Notes under the pieces: generated by a model
Database searches by the model: none
What the model was told of the DNA's origin: nothing
Seen by the model: the letters and a program-made list of their open reading frames with translations, nothing else
In this document: piece after piece, positions 43,296-53,252 of the stretch
Position numbering within the stretch: the stretch's first letter is position 1
How the letters are laid out: each line of letters begins with the position of its first letter
Assembly (NCBI GenBank): GCA_001544595.2
Contig: FCOH02000001.1
Span: 434,001 to 498,000, forward strand
DNA from: Caballeronia peredens
GTDB taxonomy: Bacteria; Pseudomonadota; Gammaproteobacteria; Burkholderiales; Burkholderiaceae
Length of the DNA: 64,000 nucleotides
Direction: 5' to 3'
Program-made: the position numbers and the translations under genes

Positions 43296-44201
43296 CTACG
43301 CGTACCACAGCGTCGTGTTCGCCCTCAACGTTTCGACAGCAAGGTCGACGAATACGCGCACCTTTTGATTCACGTGTCTGCCTTCGCGATGCACGACATG
43401 TATCGGCAGCGTAGCCAGTTCGTATTCCGGAAGCACGACTTGAAGCTTTCCTTCGGCCAGCGCGGGTGCGATCTGACAAGACAGCAGGCACACGATGCCC
43501 AGTCCGGATATCGCAGCCGAAATCGCCGAGTCGTTTGTCGTGGTGATCAGGCGGGGCTGGATGGGCACGACGCACGATTTGCCGTCTGCGCGAAAGCGCC
43601 ACTCGGGCGATGGCGTCGAAGGGAGCGCCTGGATCGTCACGTGTGAGGCAAGATCCTCGGGCTTGCGCGGCTGGCCCCGCGCCTTCAGATAGTCGGGTGA
43701 TGCGCACAGCAGGCTTCGCACTTTGCCTACTGCGATTGCCTGAAGGGAGGAACTGGGCAGCTCGCCGATACGGATCGCGACATCGACGCCTTCATCGACC
43801 AGATTCACGGTGCGATCCAGAAACCAGCAGCTTGCAATGACATCCGGATATCTCGCGAGATACTCCTGGACGATCGGCGTTACATGAGTATTCCCGAGCA
43901 CGATCGGGGCGGTCACCGTCAGTTGGCCTCGGGGCGAAGTGCGCGCGCCCGCCGCAGCCAGTTCCGCCGCTTCGACACTTGCAAGAACGCGGCGGCATTC
44001 ATCGAAGAACGCGGCACCTGCATCCGTTGTTCGAACGATGCGCGTCGTGCGGTTCAGAAGGCGCACGCCGAGGTGCTCTTCGAGATCGTTGACCAGACGG
44101 CTGATGACGGATGTCGAGACCTGGAGCTTGCGCGCCGCTGAAGAAAAGCCTTCTGTTTCGACGACCGCCACGTAGGTCGCCATAGCCTGAAGTTTGTCCA
44201 T
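43296..44201 (-). CDS. LysR-family transcriptional regulator
   Basis: A 301-residue LysR protein. The helix-turn-helix is GFSSAARKLQVSTSVISRLV near residues 18-37 and HLGVRLLNRTTRIVRTTDAG follows. The effector domain is complete. The ATG at 44201 is preferred over an upstream TTG at 44219. It reads toward the GST, cupin and MBL genes and probably regulates them. Confidence 0.87.
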   Translation of the reverse strand: MDKLQAMATYVAVVETEGFSSAARKLQVSTSVISRLVNDLEEHLGVRLLNRTTRIVRTTDAGAAFFDECRRVLASVEAAELAAAGARTSPRGQLTVTAPIVLGNTHVTPIVQEYLARYPDVIASCWFLDRTVNLVDEGVDVAIRIGELPSSSLQAIAVGKVRSLLCASPDYLKARGQPRKPEDLASHVTIQALPSTPSPEWRFRADGKSCVVPIQPRLITTTNDSAISAAISGLGIVCLLSCQIAPALAEGKLQVVLPEYELATLPIHVVHREGRHVNQKVRVFVDLAVETLRANTTLWYA

Positions 44202-44595
44202 GTTCGACGCGATCAGCAAAGAGAATTAAGCCGGGAGCGATGTGAACGCGAAAAATGTGCGTCCGCTCGCGGCATCTGACCAGACTACTGCAGGACGAAG
44301 TTTAGAGGCGCCTCGCATCGGGCAGAATCCCGCGCTGGATCATTTCATACTTCGCGGAACGAGAACAATGGTCTTTTCGTGAAGCGACACGCGCCAAGCG
44401 CAGGCCGATTGCCGCGTCCGGTTATGAAGCACGAACGTGCGTGAACTTGACTACGCGACGCGATGCAAGATTTGCCGACCCGCAAGGCTCGGCGCTTAGA
44501 ATCGGCACCTCTCGGCGGGACCAAACGCAAAAGACAATCAAGCGCTACCGAACGAGGCCCGCTCTCCCACTGCATGCGTTGTTGTTTGCGCGCCT
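44202..44595. other. 394-base intergenic region, no gene recognised
   Basis: Short overlapping frames on both strands lack ribosome-binding sites and family resemblance. A TTGACT at about 44447 and TTAGAAT at about 44496 are the only promoter-like strings on the plus strand, and they are too far apart to pair. I see nothing else. Confidence 0.5.
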
Positions 44596-45357
44596 TCAGT
44601 CGCGACGCAGCGCCTCGACCTGCCGCTTCCAGAGCGTCCAGGGCCGCTCGATCACACCGAGATTGGTGTCGTTGCTGGCCTTGCCTTCGCCGTCGTCGAG
44701 ATAGGTGACCTCGCCGCCCAGCGCGATGGCTTTCTGCTGCATGCCCGCATTGAGCTCCGTATAGATCGCACGATAGACGGCCGCCGGCAGCGAAGGGCCC
44801 GTCGCCACGAAGCCGTGACCGCGCATCAACGCGACGTCCGAGGTGCCGAGCGTTTCGGCCAGCGCCTTGCCTTGAGCACTGTTGCGCACCAGCATGTCGG
44901 TGCAGCCGAAGCAATGGCGGATGTCGAATACCGGCGAGCCCGTCGCAAGGAAGCCGGCCATGTGATAGATCGGCCGCAGGCGCACCGAAGATGCCGCGAA
45001 AGGAATCACCGACGGCGAATGGCTATGCACGACCGCCTGCACATCGGGGCGGGCACGATAAATCTCGGCGTGGATCCAGGTCTCCAGATAGCGCTTGCGC
45101 GTGTCGCCATCGACCGGCTGGCAGTCGAAGTCGAGCGTGAGAATGTCTTCGGGCTGCACGAGTTCGGGCGCCATCGACTGCGCGATCAGGAAATGCTGCG
45201 GATTGCGCGGATCGCGCACGCTCACATGGCCAAAGCCATCGAGTACTTCGTGCTGCGCGAGAATATGGTTGGCCGCGGCGAGATCATCGAGAAGGCGCGG
45301 CATGTCGTGCGCGTCATGCGTGATCGGAGCGGCGGTGTAGGGTGTGTTCTGCGTCAT
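44596..45357 (-). CDS. class II aldolase/adducin-family protein, possible hydroxy-aromatic acid decarboxylase
   Basis: A 253-residue protein of the fuculose-aldolase fold. The zinc ligands are in AVVHSHSPSVIPFA (His-x-His) and in the later MRGHGFVATG. The acidic residue before WIHAEIYRARP completes the site. Beyond sugar-phosphate aldolases, the fold includes decarboxylases of dihydroxyphthalate-type acids. The AAHS aromatic-acid permease upstream favours such a role, but this is inference. The ATG at 45357 is used. Confidence 0.8.
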   Translation of the reverse strand: MTQNTPYTAAPITHDAHDMPRLLDDLAAANHILAQHEVLDGFGHVSVRDPRNPQHFLIAQSMAPELVQPEDILTLDFDCQPVDGDTRKRYLETWIHAEIYRARPDVQAVVHSHSPSVIPFAASSVRLRPIYHMAGFLATGSPVFDIRHCFGCTDMLVRNSAQGKALAETLGTSDVALMRGHGFVATGPSLPAAVYRAIYTELNAGMQQKAIALGGEVTYLDDGEGKASNDTNLGVIERPWTLWKRQVEALRRD

Positions 45358-45472
45358 GGTTCGTATCTTTTCGGGTAGGGATGAGGTCGGACGCACGCGG
45401 CGGCCGGAACCTCGGATGGAAACAAATCTTCAGGCACCGGGCGGCGATGACGCTCGAAGCTTTCTCTGCATG

Positions 45473-46834
45473 TCAGTGTCCGAAAGCGGTCGCGTCAGGC
45501 AGACTCTCCGGGCGCTCGACGAGAAACACCAACACCGCGGCCGTGACGAGCGCGCCGCCCAGCACGAAGAACATGGCGCCCGGTCCGCCTGTTGCCTGTT
45601 GCAGCACGCCTGAGATCGCCGGCCCGCACATGGCGCCGAAGCGCGCGATGCCGAAGAACACGCCGACTCCGGTGCTGCGAATCTCGGTCGGGTAACTCAC
45701 GGCGACCAGATTGTTGAGGACCGTCTGAGTGCCGATCACGAACATGCCGGCGAGCACGATGACCCAGAAGAGCTGACTGCCCGTCATCAGCGCGAGCATC
45801 GCGATGGCGCTCGCCCCGAGCAGCCACGCGATCGACATCGCGAGGCGCCGGTTGCCGATGCGGTCGGCCATGAATCCCGAGAGCAGGCTGCCGAACGCAG
45901 AAGCGAACACGAGCAGCGAGCCGTAGGCAAAGCTGTTCGACAGGTTCTCGCCGCGCTTGAGCAGGATGGTCGGCAGCCAGCCCGACAGTCCATACGACGA
46001 AAACAGCGACAGCGCGCCCATCGCCCAGAAACACAGCGTTTGACGACGGAAGCGCACGGCGAACAGCGCACGGAACGATCCTGCCTTCACCGTCGGCGTG
46101 GGCACGGTCAGTTCGGCATCGCGAAACTCGGCGGCGCGCGCCGGCCAGAAGCGCGCGAGTTGTGCGCGCACTTCGTCCATACGATTGCGGCTCCCGAGAA
46201 ACGCCACGGATTCCGGCAACACGAATTGCAGTGCGACGGCAAGCACCATCGCGAGCGCACCCGTGAAATACATGCTTTGCCAGCCGACGCGCGGCATCAG
46301 CCAGGCGGCGATGAAGCCCGAACTGGTCGCGCCACCGATCCAGCCGAGCGAGAAGAAGCCGATGGTGAACACGTTGTTCGAACGCTTCGGGGCGATCTCG
46401 TTGATGTAGGTGACGCACATCGGCATCAGGAGGCCGAGTGCAATGCCCATGACGAAGCGCAACGCGACGAAGGAGGCAAGATCGTGAGCGAAGAGCCCGA
46501 TGGCGAGGCTCATCACGCTCGACACCCAGACGCCGGGCAGGATCACACGACGTCGCCCGAACCGGTCGCCGAACAGCCCCGACACCGCCGAGCCGATGGC
46601 GAACCCGCCGAGCCCGCATGAGAGCAGGAGACCGATCTGGCTCGGCGACAGATGCCAGGCGGGCGTCACGTCGTGAACGATGTACGACGCGTTGTACAGG
46701 TCGAATCCGTCATACCAGAGGATCAGCGCGAGCAGGATGGCGAGGCGAAAATGAAAAGCGCCGAGCGGCGCGGCGTGCAGGGTGTCGCGCAGGTCGAGTC
46801 GTTTGTGTTGAAGCGGCGTCGTGTCCAGGGTCAT
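45473..46834 (-). CDS. MFS aromatic acid:H+ symporter (AAHS family)
   Basis: A 453-residue carrier like PcaK/BenK. It has the helix 1 DGxD motif in LILWYDGFDLYN, motif A GLFGDRFGRRRVILPG, and the central cytosolic loop. It likely brings in a benzoate- or hydroxybenzoate-type acid for the class II aldolase gene downstream (115 bases apart). It is divergent from the HTH/citrate-synthase-like gene. Confidence 0.88.
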   Translation of the reverse strand: MTLDTTPLQHKRLDLRDTLHAAPLGAFHFRLAILLALILWYDGFDLYNASYIVHDVTPAWHLSPSQIGLLLSCGLGGFAIGSAVSGLFGDRFGRRRVILPGVWVSSVMSLAIGLFAHDLASFVALRFVMGIALGLLMPMCVTYINEIAPKRSNNVFTIGFFSLGWIGGATSSGFIAAWLMPRVGWQSMYFTGALAMVLAVALQFVLPESVAFLGSRNRMDEVRAQLARFWPARAAEFRDAELTVPTPTVKAGSFRALFAVRFRRQTLCFWAMGALSLFSSYGLSGWLPTILLKRGENLSNSFAYGSLLVFASAFGSLLSGFMADRIGNRRLAMSIAWLLGASAIAMLALMTGSQLFWVIVLAGMFVIGTQTVLNNLVAVSYPTEIRSTGVGVFFGIARFGAMCGPAISGVLQQATGGPGAMFFVLGGALVTAAVLVFLVERPESLPDATAFGH

Positions 46835-46935
46835 GCGGTGTCTCCGGATGTGAGTAGCGTGCCGCTTTCGCCGATCAGGCTCGCGGTGCCTTTTATGTCG
46901 TCTCGGAGCCCACTGTAAAGGCGCAATTTGTATTT

Positions 46936-46962
46936 ATCAATATTGAGTTTTAAAATCAATAT
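46936..46962. promoter_or_regulatory. AT-rich repeats between the AAHS permease and the citrate-synthase-like regulator
   Basis: ATCAATAT occurs at 46936-46943 and again at 46955-46962, 19 bases apart. The first is part of the palindrome TCAATATTGA and TTTTAAAA lies between them. The block is strikingly AT-rich in GC-rich surroundings, a plausible target for a protein with an HTH and AT-hook. Confidence 0.5.
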
Positions 46963-47004
46963 ATCGATGATTTTCCCTTAGCCGGGACCGTGCCCGGGAG
47001 AAAT

Positions 47005-48303
47005 ATGAGCGAGCGAGACTGGAACGACGTGCTGACGTGCGAGGAAGCGCTCACGCGGCTGAACATCAAGGCGGCGACGCTTTACGCATATGTCAGTCGC
47101 GGCCTGATTCGCGCGACGCCGCACGAGGATGGCCGCAAGCGTCTGTATCTGCGTCGCGATATCGAACGGCTCGCTGCGCGCAAGCGGGGGCGTCCACCCA
47201 CGGGCGCCGTGGCGGAATCCACGTTGCGTCTCGGCGACCCGGTCCTGCACTCGGCGATCACGCAAGTCACTCCGCACGGACCGCGCTATCGCAACCGGCT
47301 CGCGGTCGATCTGGCCAATTCGGGGGCCGCGTTCGAATCGGTCGTGCATCTGCTTGCGACAGGCGTCTGGCAAAGCGACATCGCGGTCTGGGCGCCGCTG
47401 GAGACGCCGCCTGACGCGTTGCGCTTCCTGTCGGTCTATGAAGGCGGAGTCATGAGCGGCGACATCGGTGCGCTTCTGGGAATGGTGCCGTTCGCACTCG
47501 CGATGCAGGGACGCGGCACGAGAGAGATTGCGGATGGCGGCGCCGTGCAAGCCGCGCGGTTGATGCTGCAGAGCATGGCGGGCTGCATCGGATTCCTCGG
47601 GCCCGCGCGCGCATTCTGTCCGCGCGCCGGCAATGAGAGCATCGCGGGCCAGATCTTGCGCGCGGCCGGTGCGGCGGTCACGCCCGAAACGCTTCGTGCG
47701 GTCAATACGGCGCTCGTCGTGCTGGCCGATAACGAACTGGCACCCGCGACGTTTTCGGCGCGCGTGGCCGCGTCGACTAACGCCGATATGTTCAGTTGCG
47801 TGGCGGCGGCAATCGGTTCGCACATCGGCTTTTCGACGGGTACCGGTACGGAAAAGGTCGAGACCTTGCTGCTCTGCGAGCCGTTGTCGGCATTGGACGC
47901 GCGCGTCGAGCGCGTGCGTGAATATGGCGCGAGCCTGTTTGGTTTCAACCATCCGCTGTATCCGGGCGGCGATCCGCGTGCGGACCTGATGCTGCAGGCG
48001 GCCGCGCAAATCGCGGCGCAACGCGATTCGGCGCCCGCGGCCCGCAAGCGCGCACGTCTGACGCTCGCGTTTTTGGACCGCATGCGGCGGGAACTCGACG
48101 CGCACCCGGGCGTTTCACTCGGCCTCGTGACGCTCGCCCGCGCGCTCGGTTTGCCCGACGGCTCGGCCACCGCGATCTGGATCGTGAGCCGCACGGCCGG
48201 ATGGGTCGCGCACGTGATGGAGCAGCGCACGCAGGCCTTCCTGCTGCGTCCGCGCGCGAAGTACGAAACGAAGCATTCCGCTGAAAGCGGCGTAGCTCCG
48301 TGA
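47005..48303 (+). CDS. HTH / AT-hook / degenerate citrate-synthase-fold protein, putative regulator
   Basis: A 432-residue fusion. Residues 10-57 form a MerR/excisionase-like helix-turn-helix (TCEEALTRLNIKAATLYAYV). KRGRPP at 60-65 is an AT-hook core. From about residue 72 the chain follows the citrate synthase fold (SAITQVTP, the FESVVHLLATG helix, GWVAH at 399-403). Catalytic positions are altered: DHEL-N reads DNELA (242-246), the HGGAN loop reads STGTGTE (277-283), and the NVDF Asp region reads GVSLG (369-373). His316 in HPLYPGGDPRA remains. Synthase activity is therefore unlikely; acyl-CoA or acid sensing is inferred. It is divergent from the AAHS permease. ATG 47005 follows GGGAG. Confidence 0.8.
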   Translation: MSERDWNDVLTCEEALTRLNIKAATLYAYVSRGLIRATPHEDGRKRLYLRRDIERLAARKRGRPPTGAVAESTLRLGDPVLHSAITQVTPHGPRYRNRLAVDLANSGAAFESVVHLLATGVWQSDIAVWAPLETPPDALRFLSVYEGGVMSGDIGALLGMVPFALAMQGRGTREIADGGAVQAARLMLQSMAGCIGFLGPARAFCPRAGNESIAGQILRAAGAAVTPETLRAVNTALVVLADNELAPATFSARVAASTNADMFSCVAAAIGSHIGFSTGTGTEKVETLLLCEPLSALDARVERVREYGASLFGFNHPLYPGGDPRADLMLQAAAQIAAQRDSAPAARKRARLTLAFLDRMRRELDAHPGVSLGLVTLARALGLPDGSATAIWIVSRTAGWVAHVMEQRTQAFLLRPRAKYETKHSAESGVAP

Positions 48304-48479
48304 GGAAGCCGGGTCCGGCTCTATATTGCGATGTGGCTTCTGCATGACGAACCATAACGTTGCGGCGCACGCTATCGCCGTATCGTGTGTCGGTTCGGAC
48401 GTTGATTCACTCTGCCATTAGCGATACCCTTAATTCGTTCGTGGTCGTCGAATGCTGGTCAACCCGGAGGCACCGTTTC

Positions 48480-48947
48480 GTGAAACGAGCTTGGGCTTTT
48501 TCCTGCATCGTCGCCTTGAGCGCAATCCTTTGCGGATGCAACAAGGACGGATCGCGAAACGCGACTCAAGAGCAAGGTGCATCGGCGAGCCAGGCTGCGG
48601 TTCAGCCTGTGCAGGCCGCGAGCGATACACTCGCCGCATCGGGCGCACAGCGGGGCGCGCCGGCTGCGGTCACGCGGGCGCAGTTGCCGGGGGAGGCAGC
48701 CGAAACACTGCGTCTGATCAAAGCGGGCGGTCCTTTCCCATATAGCGAGGACGGTGTCCTGTTCCGCAACAGCGCGGCGTCGCTGCCGGAGCATCCGCGC
48801 GGCTATTACCACGCATATACGGTTCGCACGCCGGGCGCGACGGATCGCGGTCAGCGCCGCATCGTATGCGGCGGACCGCGCAAGCAGACCCGCGACTGCT
48901 ACTACACCGACGATTACTACGCCAGTTTCAAACGCATCTCAGACTAG
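48480..48947 (+). CDS. lipoprotein-type ribonuclease N1/T1-fold protein lacking key catalytic residues
   Basis: A 155-residue protein starting at GTG 48480 (GGAGG nine bases before). It has a lipoprotein-like signal (LSAILCGC, Cys20), a linker rich in Ala, Gln and Ser, and a C-terminal barnase/RNase Sa-like domain (about 68-155). RNase Sa has YHEYTV and GDHYATF; here these read YHAYTV (Ala112) and DDYYASF (Tyr146). The general base Glu and general acid His are thus absent, while Arg126/Arg127 in QRRIVCGG remain. It may be an inactive relative with a binding role, or a decaying gene. Confidence 0.78.
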   Translation: MKRAWAFSCIVALSAILCGCNKDGSRNATQEQGASASQAAVQPVQAASDTLAASGAQRGAPAAVTRAQLPGEAAETLRLIKAGGPFPYSEDGVLFRNSAASLPEHPRGYYHAYTVRTPGATDRGQRRIVCGGPRKQTRDCYYTDDYYASFKRISD

Positions 48948-49839: not shown

Positions 49840-49967
49840 GCGGCTTCACAGTTCGATAGGGCGATCGGCTCATTCAATGAGCGTTGCCAAGGCGAAGCGC
49901 TGCACGATCCCCGCTGCGTGCGTGCTATCTTTTGAGTGGATTGGGGACCTTCCGCTCAGGAGAGATC

Positions 49968-52900
49968 GTGGACGTCGCCGCGTGGCTGCGCAGCCTCGGA
50001 ATGGAGCGATATGAGCCGGTGTTTCGCGAGAACGCCATCGACGCCGACGTGCTGGGCAGTCTCACCGCCGACGACCTGAAGGAACTCGGCATCACGTCGG
50101 TGGGCCATCGTCGCAAGCTGCTCGACGCTTTGGCCGAATGGCGGACGCGCAACGCGCCCGGACAGCCGGGCGTGAGTCCCGACGAGGCGCGAGGAGAGCG
50201 GCGGCAAGTCGCCGTACTCTTCGCCGATCTGTGCGGCTTCACGGAAATGAGCCGGCAAATCGATCCGGAGGAAGTGCTCGTCGTGCTCGAACGATACTTC
50301 GAGCAGGTCGATCCGATCATCGCGCAGCACGGCGGACACGTCGACAAACATGTCGGCGACTCCGTCATGGCGCTCTTCGGTGCGCCGGTCGCGCAGGGAA
50401 ACGATGTCGAACGCGCCGTGCGGGCGGCGCTCGCGATCCACGACGCGATGCCCGGCCTGTCGCGCATCCTCGGCCGCCCGTTGTCCGCGCATATCGGCAT
50501 TGCCGGCGGCGAAGTCGTCGCGAGCGGCACGGGCAGCGCCGCGCACCGGGAGTACACCGTCACCGGCGACACCGTGAACCTCGCCTCGCGTCTCACCGAC
50601 GCAGCCGGGCCCGGCGAAGTCCTGATATCGGAATCCGTATGGCGCCACCTGGCCGAGCGCCTCGATTGTGTTGAGCGCGATGCGTTCGCCGTCAAGGGTT
50701 TCGCGGAACGGGTGACGGCGTGGTGTGTCGGCGGTTTTCGACCAGCGACGCGAGAACGAGCGTTCGTCGGCCGCGCTGATGAACTGCGGCAATTTCATGC
50801 AGTGCTCGATGCCTGCCGCGAGACCGGCGCCGGACGCACGCTGCTGCTTCGCGGCGAGGCCGGGATCGGCAAGACACGGCTCGTCGAGGAATTCCAGCAC
50901 GAGGCGCGGGATTCGGGATTCGCGTGTCATGGCGGGTTCGTAGTCGACTTCGGGGCGACGACTGCTCAGGGCGCGATCCAGTCGCTCGTTCGAGGCCTTC
51001 TTGCACTCGACGACACCAGTGAGACGAATGCCGGCACCAGCGCCGTCGGGCAGGCGGTCGACGCCGGTCTGATCGACGCGGGCGATGCGCTCTTTCTCCA
51101 GAATCTGCTCGACATTCCGCTCACGCTCGACGACCGCACGCTTTACGAAGCAATGGACAACGCGATGCGCGCACGCGGCCGTCAAGATGTCGTGATGCGC
51201 CTCGTCCAGCGCGCGAGCCACCGGCAAGCGCGGCTGCTTTGCATCGAAGACATTCACTGGTCCGACAGCACCACGTTGAGAGACATCGCCCGGCTATCGG
51301 TGATCGTGCAGGCGTGCCCGGCCGTGCTCGTCCTGACCGCGAGGCACTCGGGCGACGTGTTCGAAGACTCGTGGCGGGCGGCGGACGGCGCGCCGTATTC
51401 GCTTGTCGACCTCGGTCCCATGAGCGACAGCGACGCGCATGTCCTGGCCGGATCGTTTCCCGGAGCGCAGGCGGACCTCGCGGCACGCTGCATCGAACGG
51501 GCGGCGGGAAATCCGCTGTTTCTCGAGCAGTTGCTCAACCATGCGGAAGAGAGCGCGGGCACCGGCGTGCCGAGTTCGGTGCGCAGTCTCGTGCAGGCGC
51601 GGCTGGATCGCCTCGATCCCGCGGATAAACAGGTTTTGCAGGCGGCCTCGGTGCTCGGGCAACGCTTCGAGCATGAAGCGCTCGACTATCTCGTCGACGG
51701 CGCCGCGCTCGAACCGCTCGTGATGGCTCGCTTGTTGCGACGCCAGGGCGTCGGCTTCATATTTCATCACGCGCTCATTCGCGACGCCGTCTATGACGGG
51801 CTGCTCAGAAGTCGGCGGCGCGATCTGCATCATCGTGCGGCGCAGTGGTACTGTGCGCGCGATCCGGTTCTGCGAGCCGAACATCTCGATCGGGCCGCGG
51901 ACCGCGACGCCGCGCTCGCATACCGCGATGCGGCGCGTTCGCAAGCGTCGCTATACCGTTATGAATCCGCGCTCCGCCTCGTCGAACGGGGGCTCGAACT
52001 CGCCGATGCGCATGGCGAGCGAGTCGTGCTCGAATGTCTGCGAGGCAATATTCTGCACGACGTCGGCGACATGACTTTGGCGCTCGCGGCATTCGAAACG
52101 GCCCTCGACTGCGCCACGACCGACGAGGAACGATGCCGCGCATGGATCGGGCGCGCGACGGTGAAGCGCGTCATCGACGATCTCAACGGTGCGTGGGCCG
52201 ATCTCGACTGCGCCGCTCTGGCCGCGCAAAACCGGGGCCTTGCGGGCGAAGAAGCGCGCATTCATTTCCTGCGCGGCAATCTGTGTTTTCCGCGCGGCGA
52301 TATCGACGGTTGTGTGCGCGAACATTCGCGCAGCCTCGCGCTCGCGCAAGAAGCGCACGACCCGGAACAGGAGGCGGCCGCGCTCGGCGGACTCGGCGAC
52401 GCGGAATACATGCGCGGGCGCATGATCAGCGCGCACGACGCATTCAGCCGCTGCATCGCGCTTTGCCGGCGCCACGGATTCGGACGAATCGAGGTCGCCA
52501 ACCTGCCGATGCGCGCCATCACCGCGTGGTTCGCGGGCACGGCAAAAGCAGGCCTCGATGCCGCGCTCGCGAGCGTCGCCGCAGCCGAGAAGGTGGGACA
52601 TCTCAGGGCGCTCGCCGTCGCGCATCATGCGGCGTGGCATTGTCTGCGCGATCTCGCGCAATGGGATCGCGCGCGGGAGCATGTCGCACCGGCGCTGCAG
52701 TGCGCGCGCGACCTCAAATCGAGGCGGTTCGAAGGCGAGGCGCTAGCCTTGCGCGCGGAATCGCATCGTGTCGCGGGCCGCCGGAGCGAGGCGCTCGACG
52801 ATATCGAAGAGGCGTTATCGATCAGCCGGGAGACGGGCATGGCTTATCTGGGCCCCGCCTATCTCGGCACTCTTGCGCGCACGACCGAAGATATCGACGT

Positions 52901-53252
52901 CTTCGACAACGCGCTCGCCGAAGGGGAGGCTTTGCTCGTCGCCGGGGCGGTCAGCCACAATCATTTTCTCTTTCGACGTGACGCTATCGACGCATGTATC
53001 GATCGAAGGCAATGGGACGCAGCCGCGCATCATGCCGCGGCGCTCGAGGACTACGCTTGCCGCGAGTCGTCTCCCTTCTCCGAATTTTTCGTGGCACGTG
53101 CGCGGGCGCTCGTGTCGTATGGGAAGGGCATTCGCGACACTGCATCGACGAAGGAACTCGAGCGATTGCAACGCGTGGGCCGGGAGGGCGGCTTCGTTCA
53201 TGCGCTCGAAGCGATCGATCGTGCATGCTCGGGCGAAGCGCTCGGGCCTTGA
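49968..53252 (+). CDS. SAM-domain, class III nucleotidyl cyclase and AAA-ATPase signalling protein
   Basis: A 1094-residue cytosolic protein starting at GTG 49968 (AGGAGAG before it). Residues 1-60 form a SAM domain. About 78-225 is a class III cyclase domain: metal Asp87 and Asp131 (FADLCGF, HVGDSVMA), Lys127, and Asn204/Arg208 in VNLASRL. The purine-site partner is Thr199 in YTVTGDTVN. Then comes an ATPase with Walker A GEAGIGKT (296-303) and Walker B LLCIEDIHWSD, followed by TPR-like helices to the end. The cyclase residues look sufficient for activity, probably on ATP. It resembles large multidomain signal-transduction ATPases and stands alone. Confidence 0.85.
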   Translation: MDVAAWLRSLGMERYEPVFRENAIDADVLGSLTADDLKELGITSVGHRRKLLDALAEWRTRNAPGQPGVSPDEARGERRQVAVLFADLCGFTEMSRQIDPEEVLVVLERYFEQVDPIIAQHGGHVDKHVGDSVMALFGAPVAQGNDVERAVRAALAIHDAMPGLSRILGRPLSAHIGIAGGEVVASGTGSAAHREYTVTGDTVNLASRLTDAAGPGEVLISESVWRHLAERLDCVERDAFAVKGFAERVTAWCVGGFRPATRERAFVGRADELRQFHAVLDACRETGAGRTLLLRGEAGIGKTRLVEEFQHEARDSGFACHGGFVVDFGATTAQGAIQSLVRGLLALDDTSETNAGTSAVGQAVDAGLIDAGDALFLQNLLDIPLTLDDRTLYEAMDNAMRARGRQDVVMRLVQRASHRQARLLCIEDIHWSDSTTLRDIARLSVIVQACPAVLVLTARHSGDVFEDSWRAADGAPYSLVDLGPMSDSDAHVLAGSFPGAQADLAARCIERAAGNPLFLEQLLNHAEESAGTGVPSSVRSLVQARLDRLDPADKQVLQAASVLGQRFEHEALDYLVDGAALEPLVMARLLRRQGVGFIFHHALIRDAVYDGLLRSRRRDLHHRAAQWYCARDPVLRAEHLDRAADRDAALAYRDAARSQASLYRYESALRLVERGLELADAHGERVVLECLRGNILHDVGDMTLALAAFETALDCATTDEERCRAWIGRATVKRVIDDLNGAWADLDCAALAAQNRGLAGEEARIHFLRGNLCFPRGDIDGCVREHSRSLALAQEAHDPEQEAAALGGLGDAEYMRGRMISAHDAFSRCIALCRRHGFGRIEVANLPMRAITAWFAGTAKAGLDAALASVAAAEKVGHLRALAVAHHAAWHCLRDLAQWDRAREHVAPALQCARDLKSRRFEGEALALRAESHRVAGRRSEALDDIEEALSISRETGMAYLGPAYLGTLARTTEDIDVFDNALAEGEALLVAGAVSHNHFLFRRDAIDACIDRRQWDAAAHHAAALEDYACRESSPFSEFFVARARALVSYGKGIRDTASTKELERLQRVGREGGFVHALEAIDRACSGEALGP

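Follow-up and report, generated by a model that had tools for sequence, protein, structure and literature searches.

The locus considered here raises the question of whether a protein made of a helix-turn-helix joined to a citrate synthase body is still an enzyme or has become a gene switch. The fusion, hereafter HTH-CS, is encoded in the window, i.e. the 64,000-nucleotide stretch of Caballeronia peredens DNA that was analysed, and its gene is divergent from those of a putative permease and a class II aldolase. A sequence-only reading had taken it for a metabolite-sensing transcription factor derived from a dead enzyme and controlling these two genes. Our analysis leads to a related answer: HTH-CS is most probably a one-component transcription factor acting on an operator at 46937-46962, with its non-catalytic citrate synthase body used as effector and dimerisation domain.

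A helix-turn-helix joined to a citrate synthase body

The features of the gene and of its product are the following (the sources of evidence are in brackets).

47005..48303, + strand: HTH-citrate synthase fusion, P0001, 432 aa (ORF, translation, Pfam HTH_17 and Citrate_synt, dN/dS)
47032..47184, + strand: helix-turn-helix domain, residues 10-60 (Pfam HTH_17)
47182..47199, + strand: AT-hook-like KRGRPP, residues 60-65 (sequence)
47236..48264, + strand: citrate-synthase-fold body, residues about 78-420 (profile versus PDB citrate synthase entries; hhalign)
47731..47733, + strand: Asn243 replacing the substrate-binding His (multiple alignment)
47836..47838, + strand: Thr278 replacing the first catalytic His (multiple alignment, hhalign)
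47950..47979, + strand: retained His316 and Arg325, GFNHPLYPGGDPR loop (multiple alignment)
48115..48117, + strand: Ser371 replacing the catalytic Asp (multiple alignment, hhalign)
48190..48249, + strand: retained Arg396 and Arg415, citrate synthase carboxylate-binding arginines (multiple alignment)

The open reading frame starts at ATG 47005; a GTG upstream, at 46990, is likewise open. The N-terminal helix-turn-helix noticed in the sequence-only reading was confirmed with Pfam, HTH_17 matching residues 10-60 above its cut-off (E 6e-7, 30.0 bits versus 27). The names MerR and excisionase were dropped for this head, the scores of MerR_1 (20.6 bits, cut-off 21.6) and MerR (19.2 bits, cut-off 28.2) being too low. 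The TLYxYVSRG stretch of the domain is nearly invariant across the family: in an alignment of 73 rows (A2, for which 72 of 76 possible relatives were taken, leaving out L066, L119, L121 and L130), residues T25, L26, Y27, Y29 and G33 are invariant while V30, S31 and R32 are conserved in at least 90% of the rows.

The complete citrate-synthase-like body that had been claimed was also recovered. Pfam Citrate_synt matched residues 205-417 (E 1e-43), the 73-row family profile covered positions 78-416 when compared with solved citrate synthase structures (best E 6e-63), and a profile-profile comparison with active citrate synthases by hhalign gave a probability of 100 (E 3.4e-39). As judged from these sequence profiles, the full fold is present; it is presumed to serve for ligand sensing and dimerisation. 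Every NCBIfam citrate synthase family matched by the window protein scored far under its curated cut-off (the best, TIGR01800, at 112.8 bits versus 421.3).

The window protein is one member of a large family, a point overlooked in the sequence-only reading. The HTH-CS proteins, defined by an HTH_17 head and a citrate synthase body within one clade, as found for the window protein, indeed form a single clade (SH-aLRT 100) in a tree of 133 rows; this was a quick tree without bootstrap, from which the catalytic columns were excluded and L074 (too short) and L093 left out. Their distribution is patchy. They were found in 4 of the 274 genomes sampled from the class (own genome included) and in 20 of 99 genomes of another family, that of G433. 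Profile A1 is matched at E <=1e-60 by 181 of the 398 genomes of the own family, a count of profile matches, whether or not an HTH is fused to them. An ortholog with 93% identity to the window protein exists in Caballeronia insecticola.

The operator and the genes it may control

The features of the divergent side are listed below.

46937..46962, no strand: operator TCAATATTGA-N9-TCAATAT (inverted repeat; conservation in group I and family-wide)
46912..46940, - strand: predicted sigma-70-type promoter of the permease gene, TTGATA-17-TACAGT (motif search; -10 conservation)
45473..46834, - strand: MFS transporter, aromatic-acid:H+ symporter-like, divergent, predicted target (TIGR00895 below cut-off; synteny)
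44596..45396, - strand: class II aldolase/adducin family protein, dihydroxyphthalate-decarboxylase-like, predicted target (PF00596; synteny)
43296-44219: LysR gene next to the aldolase gene

The divergent intergenic region, 46835-47004, had been singled out by the sequence-only reading, and a long conserved inverted repeat, TCAATATTGAGTTTTAAAATCAATAT, was found in it at 46937-46962. Nothing else in the region is as well conserved in an alignment of 14 relatives (group I: own genus, Pandoraea, a Bordetella MAG, Paraburkholderia/Burkholderia); the repeat is kept as well in L038, L058 and L059, whose divergent gene is a different one or was not found. Operators of the same kind lie beside HTH-CS genes across phyla. 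The family consensus is rTCAATmTTGAT-N6..9-aTCAAT; the window operator has a G in place of the last T of the consensus core. The core, ATCAANNTTGAT, was found at 9 or 10 of its 10 informative bases in 66 of 96 HTH-CS upstreams, versus 1.15 expected from first-order shuffles, and scored below 8/10 in 15 of them. When the third half-site was added to the core, a score of at least 13/15 was reached by 66 of the 96 upstreams versus 7 of 1060 other genes from the same loci (five HTH-CS genes without HTH anchor, L062, L065, L084, L086 and L092, are omitted from this upstream analysis). The spacer was of 6 to 9 bases in the 75 upstreams compared, which are those of the 96 with an operator score of at least 11/13. 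Among the sequence data, the conserved operator provides the strongest evidence for a gene switch, although part of its conservation may be that of a promoter, because its TTGAT elements can serve as -35 boxes.

The AT-hook proposed in the sequence-only reading calls for a qualification. The motif KRGRPP is at residues 60-65 and KRGR is present in all 14 group I relatives; the strict form, [KR]RGRP, is present in only 6 of the 14, so that the proline is not conserved. None of the 61 other operator-bearing rows compared, among them that of the own-genome paralog described below, has [KR]RGRP, and six have RGR in another setting. The operator spacer of group I is an A/T run (on average 7.7 of 9 bases, versus 3.6 in the 61 others). 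The co-occurrence of KRGR with such a spacer would strengthen the AT-hook reading a little; being limited to one clade, this correlation rests on one event.

As for the labels previously given to the divergent genes, the aldolase family was retrieved (PF00596), but the curated NCBIfam cut-offs were reached by neither protein, with 278 bits for TIGR00895 on the permease (cut-off 419) and 90 bits for NF053537 on the aldolase (cut-off 200); both labels are therefore weak. The promoter motif predicted for the permease gene was found once, versus 0.2 expected in shuffles. Its -35 box overlaps the operator, and its -10 position reads TAnAGT in the window as in all 11 MFS-linked relatives of the alignment. 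On the other side, the end of the operator is 42 bp away from the start codon of the regulator's own gene. With the operator so placed, control of both genes from one site would fit. The permease and aldolase genes accompany HTH-CS in all 4 Pandoraea loci and in 4 of the 5 group I loci of 18 kb from the same genus, L038 (59% identical) being the exception.

Two genes on the other side of HTH-CS may be mentioned. The next one downstream (48360-48947, + strand) codes for a short protein that looks secreted and contains a ribonuclease domain of the barnase type (PF00545, E 4e-20). Further on (49884-53252, + strand) is encoded a 1122-aa protein with a SAM domain, an adenylate/guanylate cyclase domain, AAA and TPR repeats.

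The exact window operator exists as a sole copy in the own 6.73-Mb genome. Its generic form, ATCAAKMTTGA-N6..10-TCAA, gave two matches there (none in the reversed control). The second match is located 70 bp before the first gene of a ring-cleavage (meta-cleavage) operon, which encodes a hydrolase, an extradiol dioxygenase, a hydratase, an acetylating aldehyde dehydrogenase, an aldolase, a Rieske dioxygenase and a PdxA-like protein. No HTH-CS gene was found in the genome besides that of the window and one at the far end of this operon (L043), the own upstream of which shows a weak match (core 9/10, core plus half-site 11/13). The same arrangement, with a far operator at the meta-cleavage operon about 13 kb from the regulator gene, was found in three genomes, the two others being G022 (L180) and Caballeronia zhejiangensis p3; the latter has a further operator beside the regulator gene.

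Seen as a whole, the region between that operator and the second HTH-CS gene (G000:C33:384692-398704, L178 and L043), outside the window, is a complete-looking meta-cleavage cluster that also includes Rieske alpha and beta, MFS and porin genes. The cluster on the C. zhejiangensis plasmid p3 has a class II aldolase in the set.

Across 32 same-genus genomes, the generic form gave 26 matches, with 1 in the reversed control. The flanks of 22 sites were inspected; the other four are group I sites known by position. By position and flanks, nine matches are linked to HTH-CS loci (one of them, G020:C48:271107, is so counted by proximity only), 11 represent a single orthologous site flanked by LysR and epimerase genes, and the other six were without assignment. 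The notion of an operator unique to HTH-CS genes is weakened by the LysR/epimerase palindrome: because of such matches, the operator palindrome is specific but not exclusive.

The latter palindrome (L179, L182, L184, L186, L188, L190-L192, L194, L196 and L203) occurs in 11 of the 32 genomes, some of them without full-length HTH-CS, and is apparently unrelated to HTH-CS.

Could HTH-CS be purely autoregulatory, with the permease and aldolase genes under another control, such as that of the nearby LysR, and the intergenic region merely common? The operator of L038, kept without a called divergent neighbour, and the LysR gene adjoining the aldolase gene go in that direction. We consider this unlikely, given the overlap of the operator with the predicted -35 box of the permease promoter, the position of the paralog-system operator at a far catabolic promoter in three genomes, and the G020 operator, which is found 46 bp upstream of a TPP-enzyme gene.

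The altered active site and the neighbours of the family

The active site was examined in a multiple alignment of the HTH-CS rows with GltA, PrpC and 31 neighbouring citrate synthase proteins (the short matches L098 and L112 were removed beforehand) and by profile-profile comparison with hhalign. The two methods agree on Thr278 and Ser371 as the replacements of the first catalytic His and of the catalytic Asp, the loss of which had been claimed earlier; in neither alignment are these residues supplied from other positions, the outcome that would have spoken against the claim. His316 remains, as had also been said, so that one residue out of three of the catalytic His-His-Asp triad is kept (Thr278/His316/Ser371). 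A further change had been missed: the substrate His of the ADHE motif reads Asn243. In the numbering of the pig enzyme, we take Thr278, Ser371 and Asn243 to correspond to His274, Asp375 and His238, and the kept His316, Arg325, Arg396 and Arg415 to His320, Arg329, Arg401 and Arg421.

Simple trends emerge when the whole family is considered. Of 102 HTH-CS rows, the window protein included, 62 have the first catalytic His, 39 are without it and one shows a gap. The residue found instead in the 39 His-less rows is T (21 rows), V (7), I (6), L (3), S (1) or N (1). At the position of the catalytic Asp, the same rows have E (19), A (16), S (2), D (1) or V (1), with Ser or Ala in the window protein and the rows nearest to it. 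None of the 39 has lost His316 or Arg325. Among the 38 rows with a letter at the respective position, Arg396 is kept in 37 and Arg415 in all 38. Outside the His-less clade, both His are present in 62 of 62 rows, with Asp in 60 and Glu in 2.

The 38 His-less rows that entered the tree are separated from all others by a single branch (SH-aLRT 100). One change is enough there to account for the loss of the first His, while the Asp position requires four. By title or kinship, all 38 belong to the Burkholderiales or Betaproteobacteria, save one Hyphomicrobiales MAG (L068). Comparison with five same-genus orthologs gave dN/dS values of 0.07-0.11 for the whole protein, 0.067-0.120 for the citrate synthase core and 0.038-0.084 for the HTH, the latter being the lowest of the three parts in four comparisons and near lowest in the fifth. 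Two more distant rows (dS near 1) gave 0.110 and 0.208 for the core. The low values obtained for the core indicate purifying selection, hence a gene that is not decaying. Judging by its residue content, the citrate synthase domain of the window protein is dead as a synthase, yet it is maintained.

It might be argued that HTH-CS is still an enzyme, of another kind or of low activity, to which the HTH was added for tethering or tuning: the members outside the His-less clade have an essentially complete set of catalytic residues, and the window protein keeps the pocket arginines. This is improbable in view of what occupies the first His position in the 39 rows (Thr, Val, Ile, Leu, Ser or Asn) and the Asp position (Ser or Ala) in the window protein and its closest relatives. 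Moreover, a citrate synthase function is not what one expects of a permease-aldolase operon, and the own genome encodes a canonical GltA-like protein (L001).

One oddity was revealed among the citrate synthases encoded beside HTH-CS genes. Next to 27 HTH-CS genes, the citrate synthase has a Glu at the catalytic Asp and both His, in a motif like TNVEFYTAL; these make up 27 of 33 citrate synthase rows, the remaining six being PrpC or GltA. The loci are L082, L086-L088, L091, L092, L094, L097, L099-L102, L104, L105, L107-L109, L113, L116, L117, L119, L124, L126 and L129-L132.

A survey of the gene neighbourhoods of HTH-CS fusions had been suggested in the sequence-only reading; it revealed, besides the width of the family, that His-less and His-keeping loci differ in their neighbours. 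Genes within 7 kb were sought by tblastn (E <=1e-20) around 34 loci without the His and 62 with it. Close relatives were left unthinned and the counts (without/with His) are thus not independent: 14/0 for the TctC receptor, 13/0 for a Pht5-like protein (so named from its look, with no Pfam or NCBIfam match), 12/0 for the class II aldolase, 12/0 for the window-type MFS permease, 10/0 for a TPP enzyme, 9/1 for aldehyde dehydrogenase, 5/0 for Rieske oxygenase, 4/0 for a PdxA-like protein and 2/0 for a double-cupin dioxygenase-like protein, versus 0/30 for citrate synthase or PrpC, 0/6 for CoA_transf_3 and 0/5 for PrpB. Isocitrate/isopropylmalate dehydrogenase (1/1) and DmpG (0/0) did not separate the two kinds of loci. 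The counts omit L138-L140, L093 and the second HTH-CS gene of L064, as well as the citrate synthase genes of L086 and L088, which are overlapped by an over-long HTH-CS ORF; gene calls in the relatives' loci were made with an untrained GC-position heuristic. A divergent citrate synthase or PrpC gene was present in 28 of 58 His-keeping loci with at least 2.5 kb upstream versus 0 of 32 His-less ones. From these differences in neighbour counts, the loss of catalysis accompanies a switch of neighbours, from citrate or methylcitrate synthesis to the uptake and breakdown of organic and aromatic acids.

In Chloroflexota, Alphaproteobacteria, Myxococcota, Gemmatimonadota and Acidobacteriota the divergent gene often codes for a further citrate synthase; the one in L104 matches NF009005 above cut-off. 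In the G433 family, it codes for a PrpB homologue in 20 of 20 loci, 65-92% identical to the PrpB of L111 (a PrpB-like protein with a Pfam PEP_mutase match); PrpC is visible behind PrpB in 16 of them, the flank ending before that point in the other four. All 20 of these loci have an operator at the HTH-CS start or shortly ahead of it. By motif matching, the Asp and the second His are present in all 20 proteins and the first His in 19, the pattern having fallen on another stretch in the over-long ORF L215. From the PrpB identities, mostly of 85-92%, the G433 family is probably that of Pseudoxanthomonas.

Two minor observations concern the His-keeping side. In the prp-linked locus L217, operator copies are found at 1256 and 1474 (HTH-CS forward), one for each divergent start. 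A CoA_transf_3-like gene is found near HTH-CS in L103, L120, L121, L125, L127 and L128 (by Pfam in L103 and L127), and no citrate synthase was found near HTH-CS in these six loci.

In citrate synthases, the partner subunit contributes an arginine to the active site. HTH-CS might accordingly pair with an active citrate or methylcitrate synthase and act as the DNA-tethering subunit of such mixed dimers, as the frequent divergent citrate synthase genes outside the His-less clade (28 of 58 loci) would permit. With no citrate synthase gene found within 7 kb in any of the 34 loci of the His-less clade, and with predicted targets that are not citrate synthase genes, this is highly improbable. Least probable of all is that the palindrome is a promoter element or another regulator's site and the HTH vestigial: TTGAT in both arms can act as -35 and a similar palindrome stands at the LysR locus, but the excess of the operator at HTH-CS genes over neighbouring genes, its recurrence beside them across phyla and the low dN/dS of the HTH all argue to the contrary. 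The likelihoods given to these four alternatives are not all exclusive of that of the main reading.

Proposed mechanism, related systems and origin

How could HTH-CS work as a transcription factor? Its N-terminal HTH would bind the operator at 46937-46962, probably with the help, in this sub-clade, of the AT-hook-like KRGR patch facing the AT-rich spacer. The bound protein would then control its own gene and the divergent permease-aldolase operon. The citrate synthase body would no longer catalyse condensation and would most likely be the domain for dimerisation and effector binding, where a carboxylate from the pathway, perhaps together with a CoA ester, may be held by the retained His316 and three arginines. 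Architecture, catalytic-residue loss and its single origin, constraint, operator and synteny are read directly from the sequences; binding to DNA and to a ligand would follow from them by inference, as would the nature of that ligand and the sense of control, be it repression or activation. As to the ligand, citrate synthase uses the corresponding His and arginines to hold the carboxylates of oxaloacetate, and for that reason a carboxylate is the probable effector, a CoA ester being possible.

One kind of effector, citrate-like ring-cleavage products such as 4-carboxy-4-hydroxy-2-oxoadipate, was set aside, since no protocatechuate 4,5-cleavage gene set was seen among the scanned neighbours.

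Sensor domains derived from an enzyme fold are found in the MocR/GntR, ROK and DeoR regulators; the principle is that of HTH-CS and the folds differ. In a search largely confined to the open-licence literature, no HTH-CS or other regulator derived from citrate synthase was recognised. New regulators were reportedly predicted in a comparison of how malonate and propionate genes are regulated across Proteobacteria (J Bacteriol, 2012), and these may overlap with the prp-linked HTH-CS members.

As a kind, a HTH with an enzyme-derived sensor is already known from BzdR and BoxR, which repress benzoate degradation. Both have a shikimate-kinase-like domain and respond to benzoyl-CoA (PMC6449761, PMC6079105). 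They resemble HTH-CS in combining a HTH with a domain derived from a metabolic enzyme and in controlling aromatic acid catabolism (PMC6449761, PMC6079105). They differ from it, in a comparison of descriptions, by the HTH_XRE type of their head, the shikimate-kinase-like domain and the operator, made of TGCA repeats in the case of BzdR (PMC6449761).

Among citrate synthases proper, GltA, PrpC and the NF009005 proteins share with the window protein the full fold, His316 and the three substrate arginines; unlike them, the window protein has both catalytic residues replaced, a N-terminal HTH, an operator upstream and a catabolic operon as neighbour. The intact-site HTH-CS proteins (G433 family, Pseudoxanthomonas) have the same architecture and a closely similar operator, the G433-family rows being absent from the tree that places HTH-CS in one clade. 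In contrast to the window protein, they keep their active site and are beside prpB-prpC, a divergent citrate synthase gene or a CoA_transf_3 gene.

A scenario can be tentatively drawn, which may well be right although we would not lean on it: these regulators would derive from a HTH joined to a copy of a citrate synthase, acting first on the gene of the enzyme itself, with a later loss of the His and a retargeting in Burkholderiales. The starting point would be a copy of a citrate or 2-methylcitrate synthase turned into a family of transcription factors. In the ancestral form the active site would be complete, and the protein would control prpBC or a divergent citrate synthase gene, i.e. the gene of its parent enzyme, the enzyme copy sensing the substrates or product of that very enzyme. 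In the Burkholderiales lineage, the catalytic His would have been lost once and the Asp changed or lost, with the carboxylate-binding residues kept; the protein would have been retargeted to operons for aromatic or other organic acids, the operator remaining essentially unchanged.

With forms that have or lack the active site and one kind of operator, the family could offer a direct view of the change from enzyme to sensor. HTH-CS would be a predicted regulator of the methylcitrate cycle in a second family of the class, probably that of Pseudoxanthomonas, and is a candidate regulator of several aromatic-acid catabolic clusters in Burkholderiales. Among plasmid records, 12 HTH-CS relatives were matched; the six that are named are called citrate synthase, citrate synthase family protein or citrate/2-methylcitrate synthase. 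Given these names, the regulator class is probably hidden among enzyme annotations. On the Acidovorax carolinensis plasmid pACP3.2 (L206, 12010-13232), the HTH-CS gene is annotated as two overlapping CDS and may be broken.
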